Part shown: piece by piece, positions 1 to 12,600 of the stretch
Numbering within the stretch: the stretch's first letter is position 1
Layout of the letters: each line of letters starts with the position of its first letter
IMG/VR virus record: IMGVR_UViG_3300030106_001000
Span: 1-23,473 of that record
Source of the DNA: a virus
DNA: 23,473 nt
Strand: one strand, 5' to 3'
Program-made: the position numbers and the translations under genes
Notes under the pieces: model-generated
Seen by the model: the letters and a program-made list of their open reading frames with translations, nothing else
Told to the model about the DNA's origin: nothing
Database searches by the model: none

Positions 1-1024
1 ACCGTACATATCCCCAGACCGACGCAGAAGCGGCTATAAGGCTCCCCCCTCCTACCCACACGGGAACCCAGGGAACCGAGAAAAACCGCGTAATAACCGC
101 TACGAGAACGCCTAGAACTAGTATTACTAATAGCTCCCCCGCTACCGCCCAATCGGGTCGAACGGGGGCGGTTCCTTGAATTAACGTCTCAAATAAAGCC
201 GCCTGAATACGATGAGGATGCATTAACCCAATAGGAGTAGGAACCATAGGACTAATACCTGCCGCAGTCACTCCTACAAAAACAATACGCCCTTCTACAG
301 GAGCTTCAAATGTGGTGTTCCAATCAATCCACACCCTACCTACGCTATCTGTTTCAATCGTATTGAAGCTAGGAACCCGTACCGCTTGTACCCCCGCTTC
401 ACTAGCTTTCACCTGATAACTAGGATCTCCTGCTAACCCCCTTAGTACATCCAATCCAAGAGCGGGGTACAGTTCTTCCCCTACTCGAAGCAACATAGGA
501 ACTCTGCGCACTAATCCATCTACCTCGGGACTAGAATTTACAATCCCTGTACCGACAGCCGCCTCTTGTAAGATTGAAACATTGGGCAAGATCCCAGGAT
601 AGCGGAGTACTTTATCTTTGACAGGTCCCATCATGGCGACCCCTGTATGCCAGCCCTGTTGTCGTTCTTCTTGAATAGCTACCGCAGAAAGGAACGTAGG
701 TAACCCAGCCATACTATTTGCGAACTCAGCGTCTCCGTCAAAACGGTCAGGTTCTGGAAAAAGAACCGTATATACCACCGCCGAAGCCCCTTGTTCCAAC
801 AGCTGTTGATTTAACTGGGCAAGGTCTTGCCGTGGCCAAGGCCACTGGCCCTGCTTCTTTAACGCTTCTTCGTCAATATCATAAATAGCTAGGTAGTCAC
901 TAGGTTTAGCGTCTTTTAGAGAAAAAAGTGTATCAAAATACTTTAAGCGTAGCGTTTCTATTGGCCAAGGGTCCCATATTCGAAGAAAAAGGAGACCGAC
1001 GACTAAAGCTAAAGTTAAACGCAT
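1..1024 (-). CDS. CHASE2-domain membrane protein (3' end beyond window)
   Basis: A 341-residue open frame begins at 1024 (ATG overlapping the upstream TAA as TAATG) and runs off the left edge, so the C-terminus is missing. An N-terminal hydrophobic segment (residues 3-15) is followed by a periplasmic domain with CHASE2 hallmarks: the IDEEALKKQGQWPWPR stretch (50-65), LFPEPDR (88-94), GIVNSSPEVDGLVRRVPML (160-178) and FVGVTAAG (249-256). Two hydrophobic segments follow (about 297-313 and 320-339), as in CHASE2 sensors, which usually have three such helices before a cyclase, kinase or other output domain. Any output domain lies outside the window. CHASE2 domains are extracytoplasmic sensory modules and are often encoded beside FecR-domain proteins; here a FecR gene lies two genes upstream. 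No clear ribosome binding site precedes the ATG, so translational coupling is likely. The family call is strong; its role in a phage is unknown. Confidence 0.85.
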   Translation of the reverse strand, partial: MRLTLALVVGLLFLRIWDPWPIETLRLKYFDTLFSLKDAKPSDYLAIYDIDEEALKKQGQWPWPRQDLAQLNQQLLEQGASAVVYTVLFPEPDRFDGDAEFANSMAGLPTFLSAVAIQEERQQGWHTGVAMMGPVKDKVLRYPGILPNVSILQEAAVGTGIVNSSPEVDGLVRRVPMLLRVGEELYPALGLDVLRGLAGDPSYQVKASEAGVQAVRVPSFNTIETDSVGRVWIDWNTTFEAPVEGRIVFVGVTAAGISPMVPTPIGLMHPHRIQAALFETLIQGTAPVRPDWAVAGELLVILVLGVLVAVITRFFSVPWVPVWVGGGSLIAASASVWGYVR

Positions 1025-1815
1025 TAGTCTTGCTGAGTAATACTAATTGTCTTGTTGCAGTTGCTCGTGCAATTAAACGTGGCACTGTACGACTTGTTGG
1101 TCGCGCCTTTCTGTACCACGGTGACATCATAGTCACTAGTATAAAACCGCATTAGCGAGGTGTGCGCTCCATTGCCTTGTTGGGTTAACGTCACCTCTCC
1201 ATCATCTGCATTGCTGTACCAGAATATATCCGCGTCTTTGTTACCAGAGCCTTTCTGTATCAAGCGTGTTGAGGCGTTATCTGCGCTGTAGTTATAGACA
1301 TACGCATTATGGTCGCCCGTTCCTTCTTGCGTGATCCAAATATCTGAATCATCCGCAAAGGAAATAATCTTTCCGTATTGGCTCTCCCCGTCCTGCTCAA
1401 TTTTGTAGACATTGTCATCCCCGGAACCCAGTATCCACGCTTGATGGTCATTGCCTGTTTGGATAATCGTAGAGGTATTATCGTCTTCATCCATGTCGAT
1501 CACGGAATAGTTTGAGTTACCGTTCACTGTCGTGATCCACGATTGGCCGTCATGATTAGACCAAACGGACTGCACGTACGCCTGATTCGAGTCACCCGTC
1601 ACGTTCACCGTTATGGTCGCATTGTCGCAGGTATGGTTCTGAACGAGTGTGTTGTCAAAGCTACCCAATCCACAGTAGATACCCGTGGTATTACTGGTTC
1701 CCACTTGTTTTGTCGTAATAGTCGCTCCGGTCCCTTGAGCCTTTAGCGTGATGACGTTATCGCCTGCAAAACTATGGAGACTGAAAAATAATAATGGAAT
1801 TATCGCCCACACCAT
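1024..1815 (-). CDS. curlin-like repeat protein 2 (CsgA/CsgB-like secreted protein)
   Basis: This 263-residue protein has a short signal peptide (residues 1-17, ending SFA before GDN). The mature part is built of irregular beta-strand repeats rich in Q, G, N and T, such as IIQTG (117-121), ITQEGTGDHN (161-170), LIQKGSGNKD (185-194), LTQQGNGAHT (210-219), VVQKGATNK (233-241) and a final SITQQD. These resemble the curlin pattern of Q-x-G-x-x-N ladders that stack into amyloid, though spacing is less regular than in E. coli CsgA. Unlike classical curlins it carries cysteines (48, 63, 249, 253), including a C-x3-C near the C-terminus. The ATG at 1815 sits behind GGAGG and overlaps the FecR gene by 44 bases. 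Being in the same run as CsgG and CsgF homologues, it is a likely substrate of that pore. It could instead be a minor nucleator or a surface adhesin. Confidence 0.75.
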   Translation of the reverse strand: MVWAIIPLLFFSLHSFAGDNVITLKAQGTGATITTKQVGTSNTTGIYCGLGSFDNTLVQNHTCDNATITVNVTGDSNQAYVQSVWSNHDGQSWITTVNGNSNYSVIDMDEDDNTSTIIQTGNDHQAWILGSGDDNVYKIEQDGESQYGKIISFADDSDIWITQEGTGDHNAYVYNYSADNASTRLIQKGSGNKDADIFWYSNADDGEVTLTQQGNGAHTSLMRFYTSDYDVTVVQKGATNKSYSATFNCTSNCNKTISITQQD

Positions 1816-2851
1816 TCACCTCCACATCCATAATCGTTTCTACACTATTGATCCGCAAGGACGTTGATTTGTACTTATCAATCGCGATATCAAACGTGTT
1901 CGTTCCTTGGTGCACAAAGAATAAGTGCTCCCCTTCAATGAACGTGTACGTTTGAAGTACCGGATCAAACCCCGGCAAAATACCCGCGATTTCTATTCCG
2001 TCCATTTCGTTGACTACTTCTGTCTTTTTCTTTGAGCTGGTTTCCATCACCGCCAAGAGGTCTACCAAGAAATCAAACGACAACAAATCGATATCCAACC
2101 GCGTAATCTCTTCTTCCTCTTCTAAAAAGTCCTTATCCAAATCTGGTGCGTCTTCAAAGAAGTCTCGGTCCAGATCTGAAGAGGTTTCCCCTTGCTGTTC
2201 CGCTTCTGCTTCCACAATAGCGGGAGGTTTATTGACAATCAGCATGTTGTCGATCAAATCCAAGCTGATATTTCCCAGCACTACTGCCTTGGTGGGGCGC
2301 GACTCAAACGTACTTACCATAGTCGCTTGGAACGGTTGGTCGAGTATTTCCGTACCGGACCAAGTCGTTACCGATATAGCCCCAGATGAGTTGCCACTCG
2401 CATCAGGTAGTAAAATAATCAGGCTACGCCCTAGCTCATCAACGGTTGTCGTGAAATCTGTACCACGTATACCAATGGTTGCACTGGGCGTCTTAATGAA
2501 AATGTTTTCTTTCTTGATTCCAGACAGCCGACCCGTAATAAATCGGGCAGTTCCGGAGGCCATATTGAGAGCCAGTTTTGATTTATTGGGGTCCGGGTCA
2601 TATACGAAATCATCGATGACAAGTTTCGAATGCTCCGTTAAACGAACCACCGAAGAATCTAAAAACTCAATAGCGATGCGACCATTTCCGGTACGAACGT
2701 CGTCGTAAGAGGAAATTCCTAGAGCCAGCTCTGCCAGCAACTTATCATCAGAACCCTGTCGAATGACCTCCCCGTTTCCACGTAACTCCGAGATGGCCCC
2801 CACATCAACGGCATTAGCCCATCCTGCGAGAATCAGCAGCCAGAAGCGCAT
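1772..2851 (-). CDS. FecR-domain periplasmic protein with curlin-like C-terminus
   Basis: A 359-residue secreted protein with a signal peptide (residues 1-14, WANA before VDVG). Residues about 20-150 form a FecR domain: ELRGNGEVIRQG, then DVRTGNGRIAIEFLDSSVVR (51-70), SKLVIDDFVYDP and TPSATIGIRGTDF (121-133). A strongly acidic linker follows (about 225-250) with a twice-repeated DLD-[RK]-DF motif. The last 50 residues switch to VHQGTNTFDIAID (313-325) and VEVNGVGDNSIIIFQ (343-357), which look like curlin strands. Stand-alone FecR proteins outside iron regulation often accompany CHASE2 proteins and surface systems. Here it sits between two curlin-like genes, overlapping both (19 and 44 bases), so it probably acts on or anchors the secreted fibre in the periplasm. 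The start at 2851 lacks an obvious SD and is presumably coupled to the upstream gene. The domain call is firm; the curlin-like tail is by-eye inference. Confidence 0.82.
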   Translation of the reverse strand: MRFWLLILAGWANAVDVGAISELRGNGEVIRQGSDDKLLAELALGISSYDDVRTGNGRIAIEFLDSSVVRLTEHSKLVIDDFVYDPDPNKSKLALNMASGTARFITGRLSGIKKENIFIKTPSATIGIRGTDFTTTVDELGRSLIILLPDASGNSSGAISVTTWSGTEILDQPFQATMVSTFESRPTKAVVLGNISLDLIDNMLIVNKPPAIVEAEAEQQGETSSDLDRDFFEDAPDLDKDFLEEEEEITRLDIDLLSFDFLVDLLAVMETSSKKKTEVVNEMDGIEIAGILPGFDPVLQTYTFIEGEHLFFVHQGTNTFDIAIDKYKSTSLRINSVETIMDVEVNGVGDNSIIIFQSP

Positions 2852-3651
2852 TGGTCAATATTAATACTACTGTCGGTTCCACCACTAGATTGTAGTAATA
2901 AATTCGCTACGTTACTACTCGCCGTATCCGTTTGATCAATATCAATATTCATGTTGGAACCCGCGTAGGTCATAGCTATCGTGTGCTCTTTACCCGACTG
3001 CGTAACATCGATGTCGTTACTGGCTCCGGTAACCGTGGCGGTGAAGTTCTTTTTATCCCCCGACTGGGTGATCGTCACCTCGTTGGAGTTCCCAGTTAAT
3101 GTGCCGGTGATATTGGAATCCGCTGATCCCGCTTGTGTGGTATCCACATCACTACTGTTTCCTGCAACCGTCCAGTTGTTCACACAGCCAACCACATTAC
3201 ATTTCACGTTCATGTTGTTGGATGTTCCATCGATATCGAAATCCTGATTACCACTGGTCGCCGTTGCCGCATCACCTTGTGTGAATACCAAAACGTTACT
3301 ACCGCCTAATGCGTCGTAATCGAAATCCGATTGTGCTACATCGCCCGTACCACCCACCGTAAAGGTAGCTGTGTTAGAATCACCTTCAGCTTTATAAGTC
3401 CAACTACTGCTTCCAGCCTGCAAGATGCTTGCCGCAATGGTGTTGGTATCACCAAGCTGATCTATATCTACCGTCATACTTGCGCCACTAATAATGGCTC
3501 GTGCTTGTGACGTACCTATTTTGTTAGTAGCACCGATCTGGTCTATAGTGAGTGTTAACCCAGTTCCTGTCTGTGTTAAATAGATGTCATTATTGCCTGC
3601 AAACGACATGAAAGGAACGCATAGTATAAATATACTAAGAAGCCTCTTCAT
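2833..3651 (-). CDS. curlin-like repeat protein 1 (CsgA/CsgB-like secreted protein)
   Basis: I start this gene at the ATG at 3651 rather than at upstream in-frame codons, because it follows GGAGG at good spacing and begins a clean signal peptide (MKRLLSIFIL...SFA, residues 1-18). The 272-residue product is a run of beta-strand repeats of the curlin type: IYLTQTGTGLTLTIDQIGAT (23-42), VDIDQLGDTNTI (61-72), LVFTQGD (121-127), VTITQSGDKKNFTATVTGAS (192-211), IDVTQSG (214-220), MNIDIDQTDTASSN (234-247) and SINIDQ (262-267). It is longer than E. coli CsgA (about 150 residues) and less regular. It contains C-x4-C (151/156) and ends in C-x3-C (268/272), unusual for curlins. It overlaps the csgG-like stop by 17 bases and the FecR start by 19 bases. 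The best inference is that it is a main substrate of the CsgG/CsgF pore. Confidence 0.8.
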   Translation of the reverse strand: MKRLLSIFILCVPFMSFAGNNDIYLTQTGTGLTLTIDQIGATNKIGTSQARAIISGASMTVDIDQLGDTNTIAASILQAGSSSWTYKAEGDSNTATFTVGGTGDVAQSDFDYDALGGSNVLVFTQGDAATATSGNQDFDIDGTSNNMNVKCNVVGCVNNWTVAGNSSDVDTTQAGSADSNITGTLTGNSNEVTITQSGDKKNFTATVTGASNDIDVTQSGKEHTIAMTYAGSNMNIDIDQTDTASSNVANLLLQSSGGTDSSINIDQCASGC

Positions 3652-4459
3652 CGCTGTCCTCCAATGTTGTATAGTCGAAGTCCCAAACTTGTTGTTCAAG
3701 TCCTTTAATGACAAGCCCATACACTGCCGCTTCTATGGCGGCTCGTACTGCGTGATTGACCGCTTCATTTTCTGTGCTGCCGCTCTCTGCTTCGACTAAT
3801 TGGGTTCCTAATTCATAAAAACGGAAAAAATCCGTACCTCCCCCTGTAGATAGTATCGTTTTAGTAGCCGTTGCATTGAGTAAAACCTCTCCCGTTTGCA
3901 CGAGGACTGCTCGCAATACGACTGTTACTTTATCTTCTCGATATTGGTGGCGCATCCCAATACCGAGTGTTCTTGCTCCAGAACCTCCAGTTCTTAGATT
4001 GGTATCATAGCCTATGATTCCTCCTTCAATAATAAGACCTGCATATAGCAAAGGCTTTAGTTGATTTGCTCCCTCACCTTCATACATATCACGGGTATTC
4101 TTAATCAGTTGACGTTCACGGGTTAAACCGTCTAATCCCGCACGTTCCACCACCGCAAACCAATTGCCACGCCCCGCGTCTCGTAACGCTTCGATAAGAA
4201 TATCAACACCACCCTGCGTCACGGCTGTACTAAACGATGCAATATTATCTAAGGCTTTCCGCTGTCCTGTTTTGTCCTGAAATTCGTACACTGCAATGAC
4301 GGCTTTAGTCAAAGGGGGTGGTAAATTTAGTAATTGGTGGGCCGCGCTAGGTACGATTTCTGGTCCTTGCCGTTCAAATTCTAAGCTGCGCTGGACTCCT
4401 GTGAACGCAGTGCACCCACCAAGAAACAGAAGACATAGCAATAGTAAGTCACGAGTCAT
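3635..4459 (-). CDS. csgG: CsgG-like curli secretion channel lipoprotein
   Basis: The 274-residue product is close in length to E. coli CsgG (277) and matches it along its whole length by eye. It has a lipoprotein signal with lipobox LGGC (acylated Cys16), then VIAVYEFQDKTGQ (54-66), FSTAVTQGG (76-84), ERAGLDGLTRERQLI (105-119), GLIIEGGIIGYDTN (141-154), a GGSGARTLGIG turn (158-168), VVLRAVLVQTGEVL (180-193), TKTILS (199-204) and the C-terminal helices. CsgG forms a nonameric outer-membrane pore that exports curlin subunits. I chose the ATG at 4459 over a TTG at 4483 because it places the lipobox normally and gives only an 11-base overlap with the CsgF-like gene. In the channel constriction, Phe76 aligns with E. 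coli Phe56, but the Tyr51 and Asn55 positions differ. This is the firmest evidence for a curli-type system in this phage region. Confidence 0.95.
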   Translation of the reverse strand: MTRDLLLLCLLFLGGCTAFTGVQRSLEFERQGPEIVPSAAHQLLNLPPPLTKAVIAVYEFQDKTGQRKALDNIASFSTAVTQGGVDILIEALRDAGRGNWFAVVERAGLDGLTRERQLIKNTRDMYEGEGANQLKPLLYAGLIIEGGIIGYDTNLRTGGSGARTLGIGMRHQYREDKVTVVLRAVLVQTGEVLLNATATKTILSTGGGTDFFRFYELGTQLVEAESGSTENEAVNHAVRAAIEAAVYGLVIKGLEQQVWDFDYTTLEDSDEEAS

Positions 4460-4940
4460 CGCACTCGGCCCAGCAACCGCCAAAGTTGCCTACGGGAATC
4501 ACAATTTCTGTCGTAGAAATCATGACGCCATCAAACCATTCTTCGATAGTGAGTGTGATTGTTGTTCCATCATTCACCCATCTCAGGATGTTTCCCTCTA
4601 AATTTATCTCTCCTGTAATGGGGTTCTCAGAGGTTGGAATACCGTCGTAATTAAACAACGACTCCGAAAGATCCTTTGCTAACGTGGAGTAAATCCGAGA
4701 CTCTAAGTTTCGAATAAACTTAGACAGTACGGTGTTGTCTGCCTCTCGTTCTGCCTCATCCAGCTTCTCTTGAATCTCACTCGCTAGATCGTCGGCCCGT
4801 GTGCGCTCTTGCTCATCGATAGTCAAGTAGTGCGCGGATTGATTAATGCCATTAAAACTGGGGCTATTGAAGCGATGGACTAACTCGGAGGCCATCACCG
4901 GCAATACCAGAAACAGCAGGCTAATCTTTACGCTGGTCAT
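4449..4940 (-). CDS. csgF: CsgF-like curli assembly factor
   Basis: This 163-residue protein has a signal peptide (1-17) followed by ELVHRFNSPSFNGINQSAHY (19-38), which lines up with the mature N-terminus of E. coli CsgF (Phe-Arg-Asn-Pro-Asn-Phe-Gly-Gly). In CsgF that N-terminus inserts into the CsgG channel and forms a second constriction. A charged helical middle (about 44-95) and a beta-rich end (LEGNILRWVNDGTTITLTIEE, within 114-134) also fit the family layout. It is about 25 residues longer than E. coli CsgF (138), mainly in the acidic linker, and ends in Cys-Trp-Ala-Glu-Cys (156-160), which E. coli CsgF lacks. It overlaps the holin-like gene upstream by 20 bases and the CsgG start downstream by 11. 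The adjacency to a clear CsgG makes the assignment solid. Confidence 0.88.
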   Translation of the reverse strand: MTSVKISLLFLVLPVMASELVHRFNSPSFNGINQSAHYLTIDEQERTRADDLASEIQEKLDEAEREADNTVLSKFIRNLESRIYSTLAKDLSESLFNYDGIPTSENPITGEINLEGNILRWVNDGTTITLTIEEWFDGVMISTTEIVIPVGNFGGCWAECDDS

Positions 4941-5271
4941 CCCGATCTGCTTTGGCTACTTTTTCTATATCAATTAGATTCGGTACACCCAGCAACGTTT
5001 TGAGCAAGACATCTTGCCGTATAGTTTGATTGTCCACAGCGCGTACCCTATCGATAAGAGAAATGATAATTCCATGCTGAGTTTCCAGTTGGGACATGAG
5101 CCTCTGCTCCATATTGTCCATCTTTGTATTAATACTGTCGTCTATCGCATCAATTTTTTGTTCAATAGTCCCCATTATCTTAGAAAGAAGCTGCCACAGA
5201 AGCCAGCCTAATCCTAAAAGACCCGCTACGGGTACACCCACCTCATTGATAATAGTAACAAAATCATTCAT
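4921..5271 (-). CDS. holin-like membrane/coiled-coil protein
   Basis: The 116-residue protein has one predicted transmembrane segment near the N-terminus (about residues 11-32, VGVPVAGLLGLGWLLWQLLS) followed by a long amphipathic, coiled-coil-prone region (35-90) and a charged tail. One membrane anchor plus coiled coil resembles BhlA/UviB-type holin-like proteins and some phage spanin or lysis-accessory proteins. Its ATG overlaps the stop of the M15 endolysin as TAATG, so the two are almost certainly co-translated; that position supports a lysis role. It also overlaps the CsgF-like gene downstream by 20 bases, physically joining the lysis genes to the curli-type cassette. No enzymatic motif is seen. 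It could alternatively be an inner-membrane partner of the secretion genes. Confidence 0.6.
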   Translation of the reverse strand: MNDFVTIINEVGVPVAGLLGLGWLLWQLLSKIMGTIEQKIDAIDDSINTKMDNMEQRLMSQLETQHGIIISLIDRVRAVDNQTIRQDVLLKTLLGVPNLIDIEKVAKADRDDQRKD

Positions 5272-5732
5272 TACTCAAAGAAGCTATACCCTGATTTATT
5301 ATAAATCAGAGCTTCCTTCCGGTTCTCTTCTTCCGAGACATAGGAGACATGAACCCATCCGCTATTAGGGTCCACTCCATCATAAAACTCTAAAATTAAC
5401 TGGTCATAATCAAGATTTTCTTTAATCCAACGGGCTAAACTTTCATTAGATATGGTAGAAATTTCAAAATCAATAGCCTGACCCTTACAATGCTGAGACT
5501 TCGCGCTGCTTCCAATAGCCTCATTCAATTCTAAACATCGAAAGCCACTATTCGGAGCAAAAGGCTTATCAAAAAACACTCGAACAGGTTCTAACACGTT
5601 TTCAGTCACCTGTTTTAAGCATTCTAATTCATCTTCATTAGGAAGATTTTCAATACCCAACCGTTCAGCAGTTTGAGACTTACACAGCTCACCTAACGTA
5701 AAATGATCACTTATCCTAGTCGTTTTATCCAT
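5271..5732 (-). CDS. M15-family peptidoglycan endopeptidase (endolysin)
   Basis: Read from the ATG at 5732, the 153-residue protein begins ISDHFTLGELCKS (7-19), the usual opening of phage M15A (Peptidase_M15_3) peptidases. The zinc ligands are visible: His81 and Asp88 in SQHCKGQAIDFE (79-90) and His128 in WVHVSY (126-131). The NSGFR motif (61-65) is also typical. These enzymes cleave peptide bonds in peptidoglycan stems or cross-links and serve as phage endolysins. A longer in-frame reading to 5897 exists but would overwrite the well-supported 109-residue gene in another frame, so I reject it. The start has only a distant CGAGGT upstream and lies two bases from that gene's stop (TGATATG), suggesting coupling. 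No signal peptide or membrane segment is seen, so release to the cell wall needs a holin, plausibly the next gene. Confidence 0.9.
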   Translation of the reverse strand: MDKTTRISDHFTLGELCKSQTAERLGIENLPNEDELECLKQVTENVLEPVRVFFDKPFAPNSGFRCLELNEAIGSSAKSQHCKGQAIDFEISTISNESLARWIKENLDYDQLILEFYDGVDPNSGWVHVSYVSEEENRKEALIYNKSGYSFFE

Positions 5733-5733
5733 A

Positions 5734-6063
5734 TCAGAGAATTGCAACCTCGATTGATCCAGCGGTGGTGATTTGAAGGGTTCCAACGGCTCCTGTGCCG
5801 CTGACTCCTGCGGAATTGGGAGTGGAAATATTTTCCCAACGATCTGTTTCCCAAACTTGAAGAACGCCTTCATCCAAATTCCAAATAAGGTCTCCATTAT
5901 TAAACTTTATCTCATCTCTCGTAGAAACAATAAAAGCTGGAGTAGCGTTCGTATCATAAGACCCTAAATTCAGTTCTAATACTCGAATAAGTTTATTGAA
6001 TATGTCACTGCGAACTTGCGGATCTGTTGCTAAAGGTAATCTGGTTTCTAAAAGACGACCCAC
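5734..6063 (-). CDS. small tail-associated protein with C-terminal GAVG module
   Basis: This 109-residue protein starts at a GTG overlapping the upstream TAG (TAGTG), behind GGAAG. Residues 1-80 have a helix-like N-terminal part (RSDIFNKLIRVLELN) and a beta part ending in DLIWNLDEGVLQVWETDRWE (58-77), a pattern seen in small phage tail proteins. Residues 86-109 are GVSGTGAVGTLQITTAGSI plus five more, a single copy of the 22-residue beta module that is tandemly repeated in the 231-residue protein at 13647-14342 and ends the zinc-ribbon protein at 16478. I do not recognise an enzyme. Between the 629-residue tail protein and the endolysin it is most likely a virion component. Confidence 0.7.
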   Translation of the reverse strand: MGRLLETRLPLATDPQVRSDIFNKLIRVLELNLGSYDTNATPAFIVSTRDEIKFNNGDLIWNLDEGVLQVWETDRWENISTPNSAGVSGTGAVGTLQITTAGSIEVAIL

Positions 6064-8346: not shown

Positions 8347-8601
8347 TCAGGCTTGTTCAGATTGGGCTTCTTCTACCTGCATTAAAACCACGCATTGCTG
8401 AAAGGCCAGTTGCGCTGTTTCTAATTTTTCGGCAATCTCTGCAATTTGAGCTTGGTATACCGAGATCTCTTGGTTTAGCCGTGCTTGTTTATTCTGCAAC
8501 CTCTGTATATTGTGCGGCAGTTCAACGACCTCCGTTTCCTGTGCCTCTTCCGCTAGAACGTCTTCTTCTTTAGTGAGGTTCTCTAGTGCTTCTTCCGCCA
8601 T
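8347..8601 (-). CDS. small coiled-coil protein
   Basis: The best start is the ATG at 8601, because TTGGAG lies at proper spacing upstream; a longer in-frame reading to 8655 has no ribosome binding site and would deepen the overlap with the oxygenase gene (32 bases with the chosen start). The 84-residue product is acidic at its N-terminus (MAEEALENLTKEEDVLAEEA) and then mostly heptad-like helix (LQNKQARLNQEISVYQAQIA and onward), ending in a glutamate/glutamine-rich tail. It has no membrane segment or catalytic motif. It is likely a small oligomeric virion or chaperone-like protein of unknown function. Confidence 0.65.
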   Translation of the reverse strand: MAEEALENLTKEEDVLAEEAQETEVVELPHNIQRLQNKQARLNQEISVYQAQIAEIAEKLETAQLAFQQCVVLMQVEEAQSEQA

Positions 8602-9277
8602 TGTCTGTGCTCCAAACATTAAAATTTGCGGCAACGGTACGCCGCTCTCCTTCACCCTCGAAAGGATACACCATGTGTTGCAACCAGGAAGGGAACATCA
8701 AAAACTTCCCTATCTCCGGCTTAATTACAAAACTCTGCGGTGGCCGCAATCGCTCCACATCAATCACCGAATTCATTCCGTACTGAAATGCCAAACACCC
8801 GTCACTATTCCCACTAGCATTGTACAGGCTGTATTCAGGACTGCTCGCAGTTGGCTGATCCAGAATCTGCTGTGGCACTTTCGTCCATGACGTGCAGGAC
8901 AAACCCATAATCGTCTTTGTGCCATGATCGTGAATCGGATTGTAGTCGCCCGCGTAGCTGTGGACTGACCACAGTTCATCCACTTCAACATGGCGATGAT
9001 TTATCGGATTGCCTGTCGAGGCAAACCCTTTCAAATACTCCACCGCCAACGTACCACTCATGCGAACAAAGTCTTCAAGCCGTGAATCGTGATGATCCAT
9101 TGTCAGTTGCTCGCCGTGACCAATCTGTCCCACGAGTGTTCCCGCATGGGAATGGCGATCTTCCTCCTCCAACAGGTCATCCAGATAGTGGTTCAGACCA
9201 GACACCATCTCGTCGGGCATCTGCGCTTCCAGCAACAGTACCGAAGGAACCGTATGTATATGAAACTCTTGTTCCAC
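8570..9277 (-). CDS. 2OG-Fe(II) oxygenase family protein
   Basis: The 235-residue product resembles the phage/marine 2OG-FeII_Oxy_5 family: SYAGDYNPIHDHGTKTIMGL (107-126) carries the first metal ligands (His116, with Asp117/His118), and GKFLMFPSWLQHMVYPFEGE (190-209) carries the distal His201. Arg212/213 and VAANFNVW follow, as expected for the 2-oxoglutarate-binding arginine and last strand. Such enzymes hydroxylate proteins or small molecules using Fe(II), O2 and 2-oxoglutarate; the target here is unknown. The start is a GTG at 9277 without a convincing SD, two bases from the upstream stop. The gene sits between fibre-associated and small membrane protein genes and looks richer in G+C than the 6-8 kb genes, which may reflect separate acquisition. 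Confidence 0.85.
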   Translation of the reverse strand: MEQEFHIHTVPSVLLLEAQMPDEMVSGLNHYLDDLLEEEDRHSHAGTLVGQIGHGEQLTMDHHDSRLEDFVRMSGTLAVEYLKGFASTGNPINHRHVEVDELWSVHSYAGDYNPIHDHGTKTIMGLSCTSWTKVPQQILDQPTASSPEYSLYNASGNSDGCLAFQYGMNSVIDVERLRPPQSFVIKPEIGKFLMFPSWLQHMVYPFEGEGERRTVAANFNVWSTDNGGRSTREPH

Positions 9278-9279
9278 TA

Positions 9280-9606
9280 CTACGACGGGATCGAAAAGCT
9301 GTCGTCTGCTACTGGGTCCGTCACTGGATTAGTAATCACCGAATCCACTTGGCTGGCAAAGACATTATCCCAATGCGCGATAGGCATCAGCCCTTCAATC
9401 TCTGATTTAGTCCAACTGCCTTTGGCTTTCTTCGCAAAGTTCACAGTTCCATCCGGGGCTGTAGCTTCTGCCGTGGTACTGAAAGTAGATGTATAATACG
9501 TTGCATCACCTTCTGAGTCGTTCTCGTAGGTAGCGGAAAGCTCCCATCGCTCGACCTTGCTCGACTTGCTGTATGGCACAGCCTTTAAGGTTTTTTTCAC
9601 TGCCAT
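9280..9606 (-). CDS. small hypothetical protein downstream of the fibre
   Basis: This 108-residue protein starts at 9606 behind AAAGGAG, two bases after the fibre stop codon. It has a basic N-terminus (MAVKKTLKAVPYSKSSKVER), alternating beta-like strands (ELSATYENDSEG, ATYYTSTFSTTAEA) and a segment KSEIEGLMPIAHWDNVFASQ (67-86). No signal peptide, membrane segment or catalytic motif is visible. Its position directly behind the long fibre suggests a fibre-associated structural or assembly protein, but I do not recognise the family. Confidence 0.65.
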   Translation of the reverse strand: MAVKKTLKAVPYSKSSKVERWELSATYENDSEGDATYYTSTFSTTAEATAPDGTVNFAKKAKGSWTKSEIEGLMPIAHWDNVFASQVDSVITNPVTDPVADDSFSIPS

Positions 9607-9608
9607 TC

Positions 9609-12600
9609 TTATTCTCCTTTGAGTTTCGTTATTTCTGCGGATAGTTCTTGTACGGCTTTAACTAATATGGGTACGAACTTACTGTACTGTAATCCGTATT
9701 GTTTCCCGTCACCTGACAAAGATACAGTGAGATTTGTTTTATTATCAGTGCTGTATCCAGCAGCTTTTTCAAGTGCTTCAACTTCTTGAGCCTTAAAGCC
9801 TATATCCAGCCAATCTTCCTTGTGGGTTCCATCGTGGGTAATAGCGTTAAGGTCATAATCATCAGCAGTCTTATCACCATACTTTGAACGCTTGTCCCAT
9901 TTGTAAGTGACAGGCTTTAACTCATTTATAAACGCTAGTCCAAGGTCTAAGTCTGTAAAGTCTGTTTTGTCTCGCGCATCAGAAGCAACTGTCCAATCTG
10001 TTTGAATATTACAAGCAGACATATTTTCATCGCCAAGACACATGACATTACTTACAGTGGTAAAATTACCGCCTGGACTTCCTGTAAGTCCTGCATCATG
10101 CCCAAGAACTAAATTGTTGTTGCCAGTTGAAATTGCTGAACCTGCATTAAATCCTAGACCTGTATTGTCGTATCCTGTGGTTGCTTGTAATGCGTTTGAC
10201 CCAACTGCAGTGCATGTGCCCCCTGAATCTGCACTTAAAGCATCGTATCCAACTGCCGTATTGTCACTGCTATCAACAGTACCATCACCTGCAATACTAC
10301 CCACGAATGTGTTTTTCGCACCTGTCGTTACTGCGATTCCCGCACCTTTACCAACCGCAGTATTGTTATCGGCAGTGGTATTATTAGCTAAAGCACCTTT
10401 ACCTACAGCCGTATTTGATGCTCCAGTGGTGTTGTCGTACAAAGCAGTTGAGCCAACGGCAACATTATCTGCACCAGTGGTATTCGTGAATAAAGAACTA
10501 TAGCCAACAGACGTATTTTCAGCCGCTGTTGTATTGTTAGTTAAAGCATAATTTCCTAGCGCCGTATTATAATGACCTGTCGTGTGATCCTGTAGCGCAG
10601 ACTTACCAAAAGCAACATTATCTGTACCTGTGGTGTTTAGATATAGAGCCTCTACTCCAACAGCTACATTTCTTAGTCCAGTTGTATTCGCACCTAAAGC
10701 ACCTTTACCAACTGCCGTAACTTCAGCCCCCGTAGTGTTGGCATCTAAGGAATAATTACCTATAGCGACATTAGATGCACCTGTGGTATTAGCACCAAGA
10801 GCGTCTCTGCCCATAGCAGTATTATTATCAGCCGTCGTATTCGCATCAAGAGCGCCGAAACCGATTGCAATATTACCGCCACCTGTGGTGTTCTCGTATA
10901 GAGCTAGTCGTCCGATAGCTATATTGTCAGCACCTGTGGTGTTCGCTCCTAGTGCACTAGTTCCAATACCATAGTTATAATAACCAGTGGTATTCGCATC
11001 TAACGCATAGCTTCCTATGGCTATATTATCGGTTCCTGTGGTGTTAAGACTTAGAGCACTATATCCGATAGCCAATACGTCACTGGCATTATTTACATTC
11101 AAGGCTGCATAGCCTATAGCAATGTTTCTAGTACCAGTCGTGTTAGCGTCTAAAGCATTAGAGCCTACAGCCACGTTGTAACTAGCTGTTGTGTTGTTAG
11201 CTAACGCCCCCTTACCGAGAGCGGTATTGTGAGCGCCAGTGGTATTATCGAGTAATGCGTAAGCACCTAAAGCGGTATTGTAATCACCTGTAGTGTTCGT
11301 GGTTAAAGCACTGACTCCCACACCTACATTTTGAGTACCAGACTCAGTTTCCGAAAGAGCGCCATAACCCACTGCTGTGTTGTTAGAGTCCGTCGTAGAA
11401 GCATCTAAAGCATAGGTTCCAAGGGCGGTATTATAACTACCCGTGGTAACTGCTGCTCCTGCACTTGTACCAACAGCCGTGTTCCCTGTCCCTGTGGTGT
11501 TGGCTAATAAAGCATAATAACCAACTGCTGTGTTATTAGAAGCGGTGGTGTTTGCATTTAAAGCTGCTCTACCAACACCTGTATTAGCAGTTCCTGTTGT
11601 GTTTGCTTGTAAAGCAGCAGAACCCAAAGCCGTATTGTTAGAAGCTGTGGTGTTTGCGGCTAAAGCAGAATCACCAACTCCTACATTATCTGCACCTGAG
11701 GCATTTGCTGTTAAAGAATCATGTCCCACTGCAACATTTCTACTTGCTGTCTCGTTGGCGAGTAAAGCGTCTTTACCGATAGCGGTATTGCTTCCTCCAG
11801 TGGTGTTGGTATAAAGAGCATATAGCCCCATACCGACATTAGAAGCCCCTGTAGTAGTCGATTGCATGGAACTTCTACCTACAGAAGTGTTACCCGTCGC
11901 TGTGGTATTTGCGCTTAAGGCTTGCATGCCCACGGCTGTATTATCTGCACCTGTGGTGTTGGCTGTTAATGCGCTAGTCCCAACAGCCGTGTTGTTAGAA
12001 GCCGTCGTATTAGCTCCTAAAGCGCCTTTACCTATAGCGGTGTTGTCGGCCCCTGTTGTTGTCGCTTCTGCCGCCTCTTTACCCACTGCCGTATTGTTAT
12101 TTCCAGTGGTCAACGCGGTTAACGCTTCATACCCAATAGCCGTCGTATTAGCTGCGGTAGTTAAAGTGGTTCCTGCTTCATAACCAACCGCTGTGTTTCC
12201 AGCGCCAGTAGTCATGGAATATAGCGCGTTTTTACCTACAGCCACTGTGTCGCTTATTGTGGTCGCGGTAAATAAAGCCGCTCTACCTAGAGCTGTGTTG
12301 TCATCGCCTGTTGTAAGGTTTGCACCAGCAGATGCCCCTAATGCCGTATTCCTATTCCCTGTCGTGGCGTCGAGAAGAGCATTTACACCAACAGAAACAT
12401 TATCTGCACCCGTAGTGATGTTTTGTGAAGCACTTGCTCCTACTGCCGTGTTATTCGCACCTGTAGTGCTTTCATATAAAGAAGCATATCCTAAAGCGGT
12501 ATTGTAGTTTCCTGTTGTATGGTCAAGAAGTGCATCTTTACCAACAGCCGTATTCCCTGTCCCTGTAGTGTTGGCTGCTAAAGCTGATTTACCAACAGCT

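Follow-up and report, generated by a model that had tools for sequence, protein, structure and literature searches.

The 23.5-kb virus record analysed here (IMG/VR record IMGVR_UViG_3300030106_001000; the whole stretch is called the window below) raises the question of what a phage may gain from a curli-type (type VIII) secretion cassette. In positions 1–4940 the genes of CsgF and CsgG come first, then those of two curlin-repeat proteins with a FecR-domain protein in between, and last a CHASE2 gene of which the 5' part lies in the window; each touches or overlaps the next, and the run continues without gaps on the strand that also carries the genes of the portal, capsid and tail proteins and of the M15 endolysin (the main genes of the window are all on the minus strand). 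Pfam matches of all six cassette genes exceed the curated cut-offs, which confirms the claim of an earlier note, made from the sequence without database searches, that six curli-type genes form one overlapping run on the late-gene strand. With some reserve, we incline to the view that the phage carries here a module for type VIII (curli) secretion and assembly, positioned so that it would be expressed late with the structural and lysis genes.

Such cassettes are already known. A csgF/csgG cluster was described in pelagimyophages (Zaragoza-Solas 2020, PMC7029224), the cassette of phage Melnitz and a possible role of it in lysis were discussed by Buchholz 2022 (PMC9004378), and Wittmers et al. 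2022 (PMC9599517) found the full set in HTVC023P-type podoviruses, widespread in ocean phages. These papers bear out the remark in the earlier note that csgG and csgF occur in some marine phages, and the roles suggested there (coating of the infected cell, aggregation, lysis) had already been proposed in them (PMC7029224, PMC9599517, PMC9004378). The window adds a further case in the HTVC023P-type lineage; new here are the likely correction of a gene published as a kinase, the curlin tail of FecR, the Caulobacterales copies within the viral CsgG clade, and carriers of 250–340 kb.

Gene content and order of the cassette among viruses

By its capsid, portal and stabilisation protein sequences the phage belongs with the HTVC023P-type podoviruses: the capsid protein is 67–70% identical to those of HTVC023P, 023Pt_psg01 and DSL-LC04, and the portal protein is about 50% identical. 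The G+C content of the window is about 45%, hence the host may not be SAR11.

The IMG/VR scan yielded 399 csgG relatives. Synteny was counted over 47 distinct viral csgG loci, the denominators being the loci with enough flanking sequence, and the gene order turned out to be near-invariant. All 41 loci with enough upstream sequence contain csgF, all 26 with enough downstream sequence contain FecR and the CHASE2-cyclase, and two curlin genes are present in 25 of these 26. Thus the combination of pore, partner, two substrates and a FecR/CHASE2 pair, which had been thought unusual, is the standard composition, published in 2020–2022. The carriers are podoviruses, T4-like phages and contigs of up to 340 kb; three viral contigs of 250, 217 and 340 kb (L179, L182 and L184) bear the cassette, and a Gp23-type (T4-type) capsid protein is encoded in the 250- and 340-kb ones. 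As the order is kept across podoviruses, T4-like phages and large contigs, the whole set, substrates included, would appear to be under selection.

The module of Wittmers et al. comes from the same lineage and has the same order (csgF, csgG, curlin, FecR, curlin, cyclase) with one or two small front genes, and CsgE, CsgC and CsgD are likewise not reported (PMC9599517). The gene order is also identical, including two holin-like genes, in HTVC008M and Melnitz (KC465899, MZ577098); these are, however, T4-like myoviruses, their cassette adjoins replication genes, and their CsgF, CsgG and FecR are 33–48% identical to those of the window. For Melnitz, csgA and csgB were said to be absent (PMC9004378), yet its record MZ577098.1 (L002) annotates two curlin-repeat proteins. 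With csgBAC-csgDEFG of Escherichia coli K-12 the phage cassette shares homologues of CsgG, CsgF and curlins; unlike the two divergent operons of E. coli it is one co-directional run, with no CsgE found and with FecR and the CHASE2-cyclase added.

A bacterial curli fragment misassembled onto phage genes was considered as well. The order stabilisation protein, 109-amino-acid protein, M15 endolysin, 116-amino-acid protein, csgF, csgG recurs in contigs L004, L006, L087 and L094 (65–100% protein identity); L089 has it too, except that no M15 match is seen there. The base composition is similar on either side. Given that the endolysin–csgF junction is seen in at least four other contigs and that cultured phages carry cassettes, misassembly was rejected as having practically no probability, and the phage linkage is real. 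The surroundings vary among relatives. In L084 the gene ahead of the cassette is one for 84 amino acids, whose counterpart in the window lies before the stabilisation gene; L085, L007, L008 and L013 have the cassette ahead of the stabilisation gene. In L005, L084 and L085 the products of several core genes (csgF, csgG, FecR and curlin 2, where covered) are 93–99% identical to those of the window, against only 65–67% for CHASE2 and 26–67% for the front gene. These identities suggest that the central part of the cassette travels or recombines as a unit whose ends can be swapped.

No regulatory RNAs or tRNAs were found in the window, and scans of its sequence for a promoter or terminator of the cassette's own did no better than on shuffled sequences.

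Table 1. Cassette genes and adjacent lysis gene in the window, and the bacterial cassette loci
Feature	Position	Strand	Evidence and remarks
M15-type endolysin (lysis gene, context)	5271..5897	-	Peptidase_M15_3 1.6e-15; PHROG endolysin 3.2e-39; directly upstream of the cassette
Holin-like protein of 116 amino acids, cassette member	4921..5271	-	phrog_18771 5e-13; one N-terminal transmembrane segment and a coiled coil
CsgF	4449..4940	-	Pfam CsgF 4.4e-7; signal peptide; alignment with E. coli CsgF
CsgG, outer-membrane pore lipoprotein	3635..4459	-	Pfam CsgG 3e-54; E. coli CsgG in PDB 2.8e-42; start taken at ATG 4459, reading frame open to TTG 4483
Curlin-repeat protein 1	2833..3651	-	Curlin_rpt 4.8e-12; signal peptide; start taken at ATG 3651 (open reading frame 2833-3720)
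FecR-domain protein	1772..2851	-	Pfam FecR 7.2e-12; signal peptide, FecR domain at residues 50-140, acidic linker, C-terminal curlin kernel
Codons of the FecR C-terminal curlin kernel NSIIIFQ (residues 351-357)	1781..1801	-	within the overlap with curlin 2
Curlin-repeat protein 2	1024..1815	-	Curlin_rpt 4.5e-6; solenoid in the AlphaFold2 model
CHASE2 membrane sensor, 5' part of the CHASE2-adenylate cyclase	2..1024	-	Pfam CHASE2 2e-41; cut by the window end
Bacterial cassette locus L095	8459-14479
Bacterial cassette locus L097	8510-14527
Bacterial cassette locus L098	8310-14364

Components of the cassette

The FecR protein ends with GDNSIIIFQSP, where NSIIIFQ is a complete curlin kernel according to the definition N-$-psi-$-psi-$-Q (Sleutel et al. 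2023, PMC10192328). The E. coli nucleator CsgB ends with IRVTQR, the same tail motif. Of 45 distinct viral FecR tails, 44 have a looser form of this motif, [IVFL]x[IVL]xQ at most 5 residues from the protein end, and so do 69 of 92 curlin-family tails, compared with 1 of 226 further proteins encoded in these loci, none of 58 CsgG, none of 56 CsgF and 1 of 40 cyclases; as the pattern was picked after viewing the alignment, and as related sequences do not count independently, these numbers describe the tails rather than test them. The motif occurs in one of ten distinct non-curli Caulobacterales FecR proteins with a readable end, probably by chance, and 19 of 41 tails have the strict kernel, Asn included. 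We take these tail sequences to suggest that FecR docks on the fibre via a C-terminal curlin strand.

Read by eye, the N-terminus of the FecR protein is a signal peptide; having this and no cytoplasmic part, the protein is unlikely to act like E. coli FecR. The cytoplasmic sigma-binding N-terminal part of FecIRA-type FecR is absent from it. The Pfam or PHROG matches of the scanned window proteins include neither a FecI sigma factor nor a TonB-dependent receptor.

The CHASE2 gene is cut by the window end, and its nature is read from a relative. In contig L005, where CsgG, FecR and curlin 2 are 95–97% and CHASE2 is 67% identical to the window's proteins, the full-length gene (8659-10491) encodes 611 amino acids with CHASE2 and a class III cyclase domain (Guanylate_cyc 2e-21) carrying the signature motifs DIVGFT, DKFMGD and VNTASRLE. 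By homology with this protein, the window gene is the 5' part of a CHASE2-adenylate cyclase, whose own cyclase domain would lie past the window end. The description of FecR and CHASE2 as a sensor-like pair is thus reasonable for the CHASE2-cyclase, while for FecR the curlin tail points to fibre docking instead.

For both repeat proteins AlphaFold2 predicted all-beta solenoids, with a predicted local distance difference test score of 87.2 for curlin 1 and 84.5 for curlin 2. Curlin 1 has four strict curlin kernels against 0.15 expected, and its profile matched best, among PDB sequences, a curlin-repeat protein (8c50, 1.6e-4) and E. coli CsgA (8enq, 4.3e-3). The doubt raised earlier, that the two proteins might have no curlin-like fold, is therefore not borne out by the predicted solenoids and the profile matches. 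CsgG has the lipobox LGGC, read from the sequence. Behind its signal peptide CsgF has, in the alignment, an N-terminus of the conserved CsgG-binding type (ELVHRFNSPSFNG versus FQFRNPNFGG in E. coli); a single-sequence search with the window CsgF against PDB gave no match, and it is Pfam and this alignment that connect it with E. coli CsgF.

The curli run should be extended by one further gene, located between the endolysin gene and csgF. Its family comprises proteins of about 85–125 amino acids with one N-terminal transmembrane segment and a coiled coil, and is homologous to HTVC008M gp011/gp012 and Melnitz 97/98. Of 41 distinct csgG loci, 38 have a member of it, mostly as two tandem copies ahead of csgF, otherwise as one or two copies elsewhere. 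A separate scan with this family gave 80 loci, nearly all with csgF or more of the cassette alongside, the exceptions being stretches that end there. Single-sequence tblastn with the 116-amino-acid protein found no homologue in phage records, these being found by profiles alone. In several loci, L028, L038 and L066 among them, the holin-like pair is on the other strand, behind the cyclase rather than before csgF.

According to Wittmers et al. 2022, one, sometimes two, histidine kinases always precede csgF (PMC9599517). In the window, the gene in this place encodes a transmembrane/coiled-coil protein without a kinase domain; no kinase model matches the family, and the HATPase_c domain was found in none of 28 cassette-bearing records, with all 14 control genomes positive. 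Judging by position and number, the published histidine kinase is most likely this protein. Its relatives weakly match the holin family phrog_4898 (8 of 10 members, best 8.3e-7), and because this similarity, weak as it is, is repeated, we regard holin-like as the better label on sequence grounds.

Possible roles of the cassette

If the cassette is a secretion and assembly module, CsgG, gated or extended by CsgF, would form a pore in the outer membrane, through which both curlin-repeat proteins would pass to stack as beta-solenoid fibres on the infected cell. The exported FecR would join the fibre by its C-terminal curlin strand as an anchor, cap or nucleator, and may report the state of the fibre to the CHASE2-adenylate cyclase in the inner membrane, which would make cyclic AMP (cAMP); the holin-like protein would act at the inner membrane as well. 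The likely benefit would be an altered surface of the infected cell, which would adhere to or clump with future hosts or keep other phages out. Metatranscripts of cassette genes have been reported (PMC9599517).

A bolder version concerns FecR itself. The phage-cassette FecR might be a fibre-docking protein and not an iron regulator, with its strand inserted in the fibre as it grows and the FecR domain signalling to the CHASE2-cyclase, so that the infected cell would sense fibre building and answer with cAMP. We offer this tentatively, as possible rather than probable; if true, viruses would be carrying an amyloid machine that monitors itself. The FecR tail, together with the likely reassignment of the published kinase, gives a testable scheme of fibre, FecR and CHASE2-cyclase, plus a membrane protein.

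Several observations weigh against a secretion and assembly module. CsgE, the usual gate and substrate adaptor of curli systems, was not found in the window (phmmer), as the earlier note had said, nor in any of 19 other cassette-bearing records or genomes, with a positive E. coli control. Curli do form without CsgE, in smaller amount (PMC7029224), and hence it is not strictly required. Curlin 2 has no strict kernels, and the FecR of the bacterial cassette L095 lacks the final Gln. Foldseek with both curlin models gave no significant PDB match, and VIA-align gave many generic beta-helix proteins (Z up to 17.5) with no curlin entry among the matches listed; we consider these searches with predicted models uninformative as to curlin membership. 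Beta-solenoids are also frequent in non-fibre proteins (PMC10192328). Finally, cultures of Melnitz, which has the same cassette, are reported to show no clumping (PMC9004378).

Three other roles have to be compared with this one. CsgG and CsgF could open or depolarise the envelope, timing lysis or aiding release, as proposed for Melnitz in PMC9004378: the cassette follows the M15 endolysin gene without a gap, the gene in between is holin-like, and the scans of window proteins gave no other holin. However, the endolysin neighbourhood is not conserved, the cassette preceding the stabilisation gene in relatives; no lysis gene is annotated near the cassette in HTVC008M and Melnitz; and a role of the pore only needs no curlins, FecR or cyclase, yet nearly every copy keeps them. 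We therefore regard a lysis device as rather unlikely. The same holds for a signalling module in which FecR, CHASE2 and cyclase reprogram the host via cAMP, the curlin system being a stimulus or by-product. It would agree with the cyclase signature motifs of the L005 relative and with the finding, in sampled Caulobacterales genomes, that 17 of 38 CHASE2 genes have FecR no more than about 3 kb away (hand count), but no cAMP-binding regulator is seen in the cassette, and the curlin-kernel tail, found on the curli-linked FecR and not on others, ties signalling to the fibre. A pore for uptake or exchange, where ungated CsgG admits nutrients or cofactors and the curlins and FecR modulate it, was raised in PMC7029224 and PMC9599517; the failure to find the CsgE gate in any cassette-bearing record searched would fit it, whereas two conserved curlin-repeat proteins, CsgF and the FecR tail would be left unexplained, and we consider it improbable.

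Bacterial copies and origin

Loci with csgF, csgG, curlin, FecR and CHASE2-cyclase genes were found in three Caulobacterales genomes, Hyphomonas TMED17 and two Caulobacteraceae metagenome-assembled genomes (MAGs), the loci being L095, L097 and L098. FecR and the cyclase were described as not occurring within bacterial type VIII secretion operons (PMC9599517), but all three loci have both. They have no holin-like gene, and all their curlins (two genes, or one long) come before FecR. The flanking genes, tested in the first two loci, are ordinary bacterial chromosomal ones. The bacterial form is rare, as a phage-type FecR is encoded in 1 of 105 Hyphomonadaceae genomes and, at full length, in 2 of 398 Caulobacterales genomes.

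In the CsgG tree the bacterial copies nest within the viral clade (98/92), and the whole viral clade is split from ordinary curli CsgG (100/99). The simplest reading of this topology would be transfer from phage to bacterium, suggesting that phages may also pass such systems to bacteria; an unsampled bacterial donor is the other conceivable origin of the cassette. A published derivation of the podovirus cassette from within those of myoviruses found no clear confirmation here: the window's CsgG clade joins other viruses and the bacterial copies (91/84).

Phage-type cassettes were also observed in MAG contigs labelled Flavobacteriales, Sphingobacteriales, Pelagibacter and Pirellulales (L096, L099, L100 and L101). 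As the CsgG of L099–L101 is placed among viral CsgG, the contigs probably belong to phages and ended up in the MAGs by binning. CsgG is also encoded in a 1499-bp record labelled as a Salmonella phage (OR851715.1), which is probably host DNA. Outside the cassette, the tail gene run of the window includes a 2OG-Fe(II) oxygenase gene (8570-9277, minus strand), and such genes are also found near the stabilisation gene of HTVC023P.

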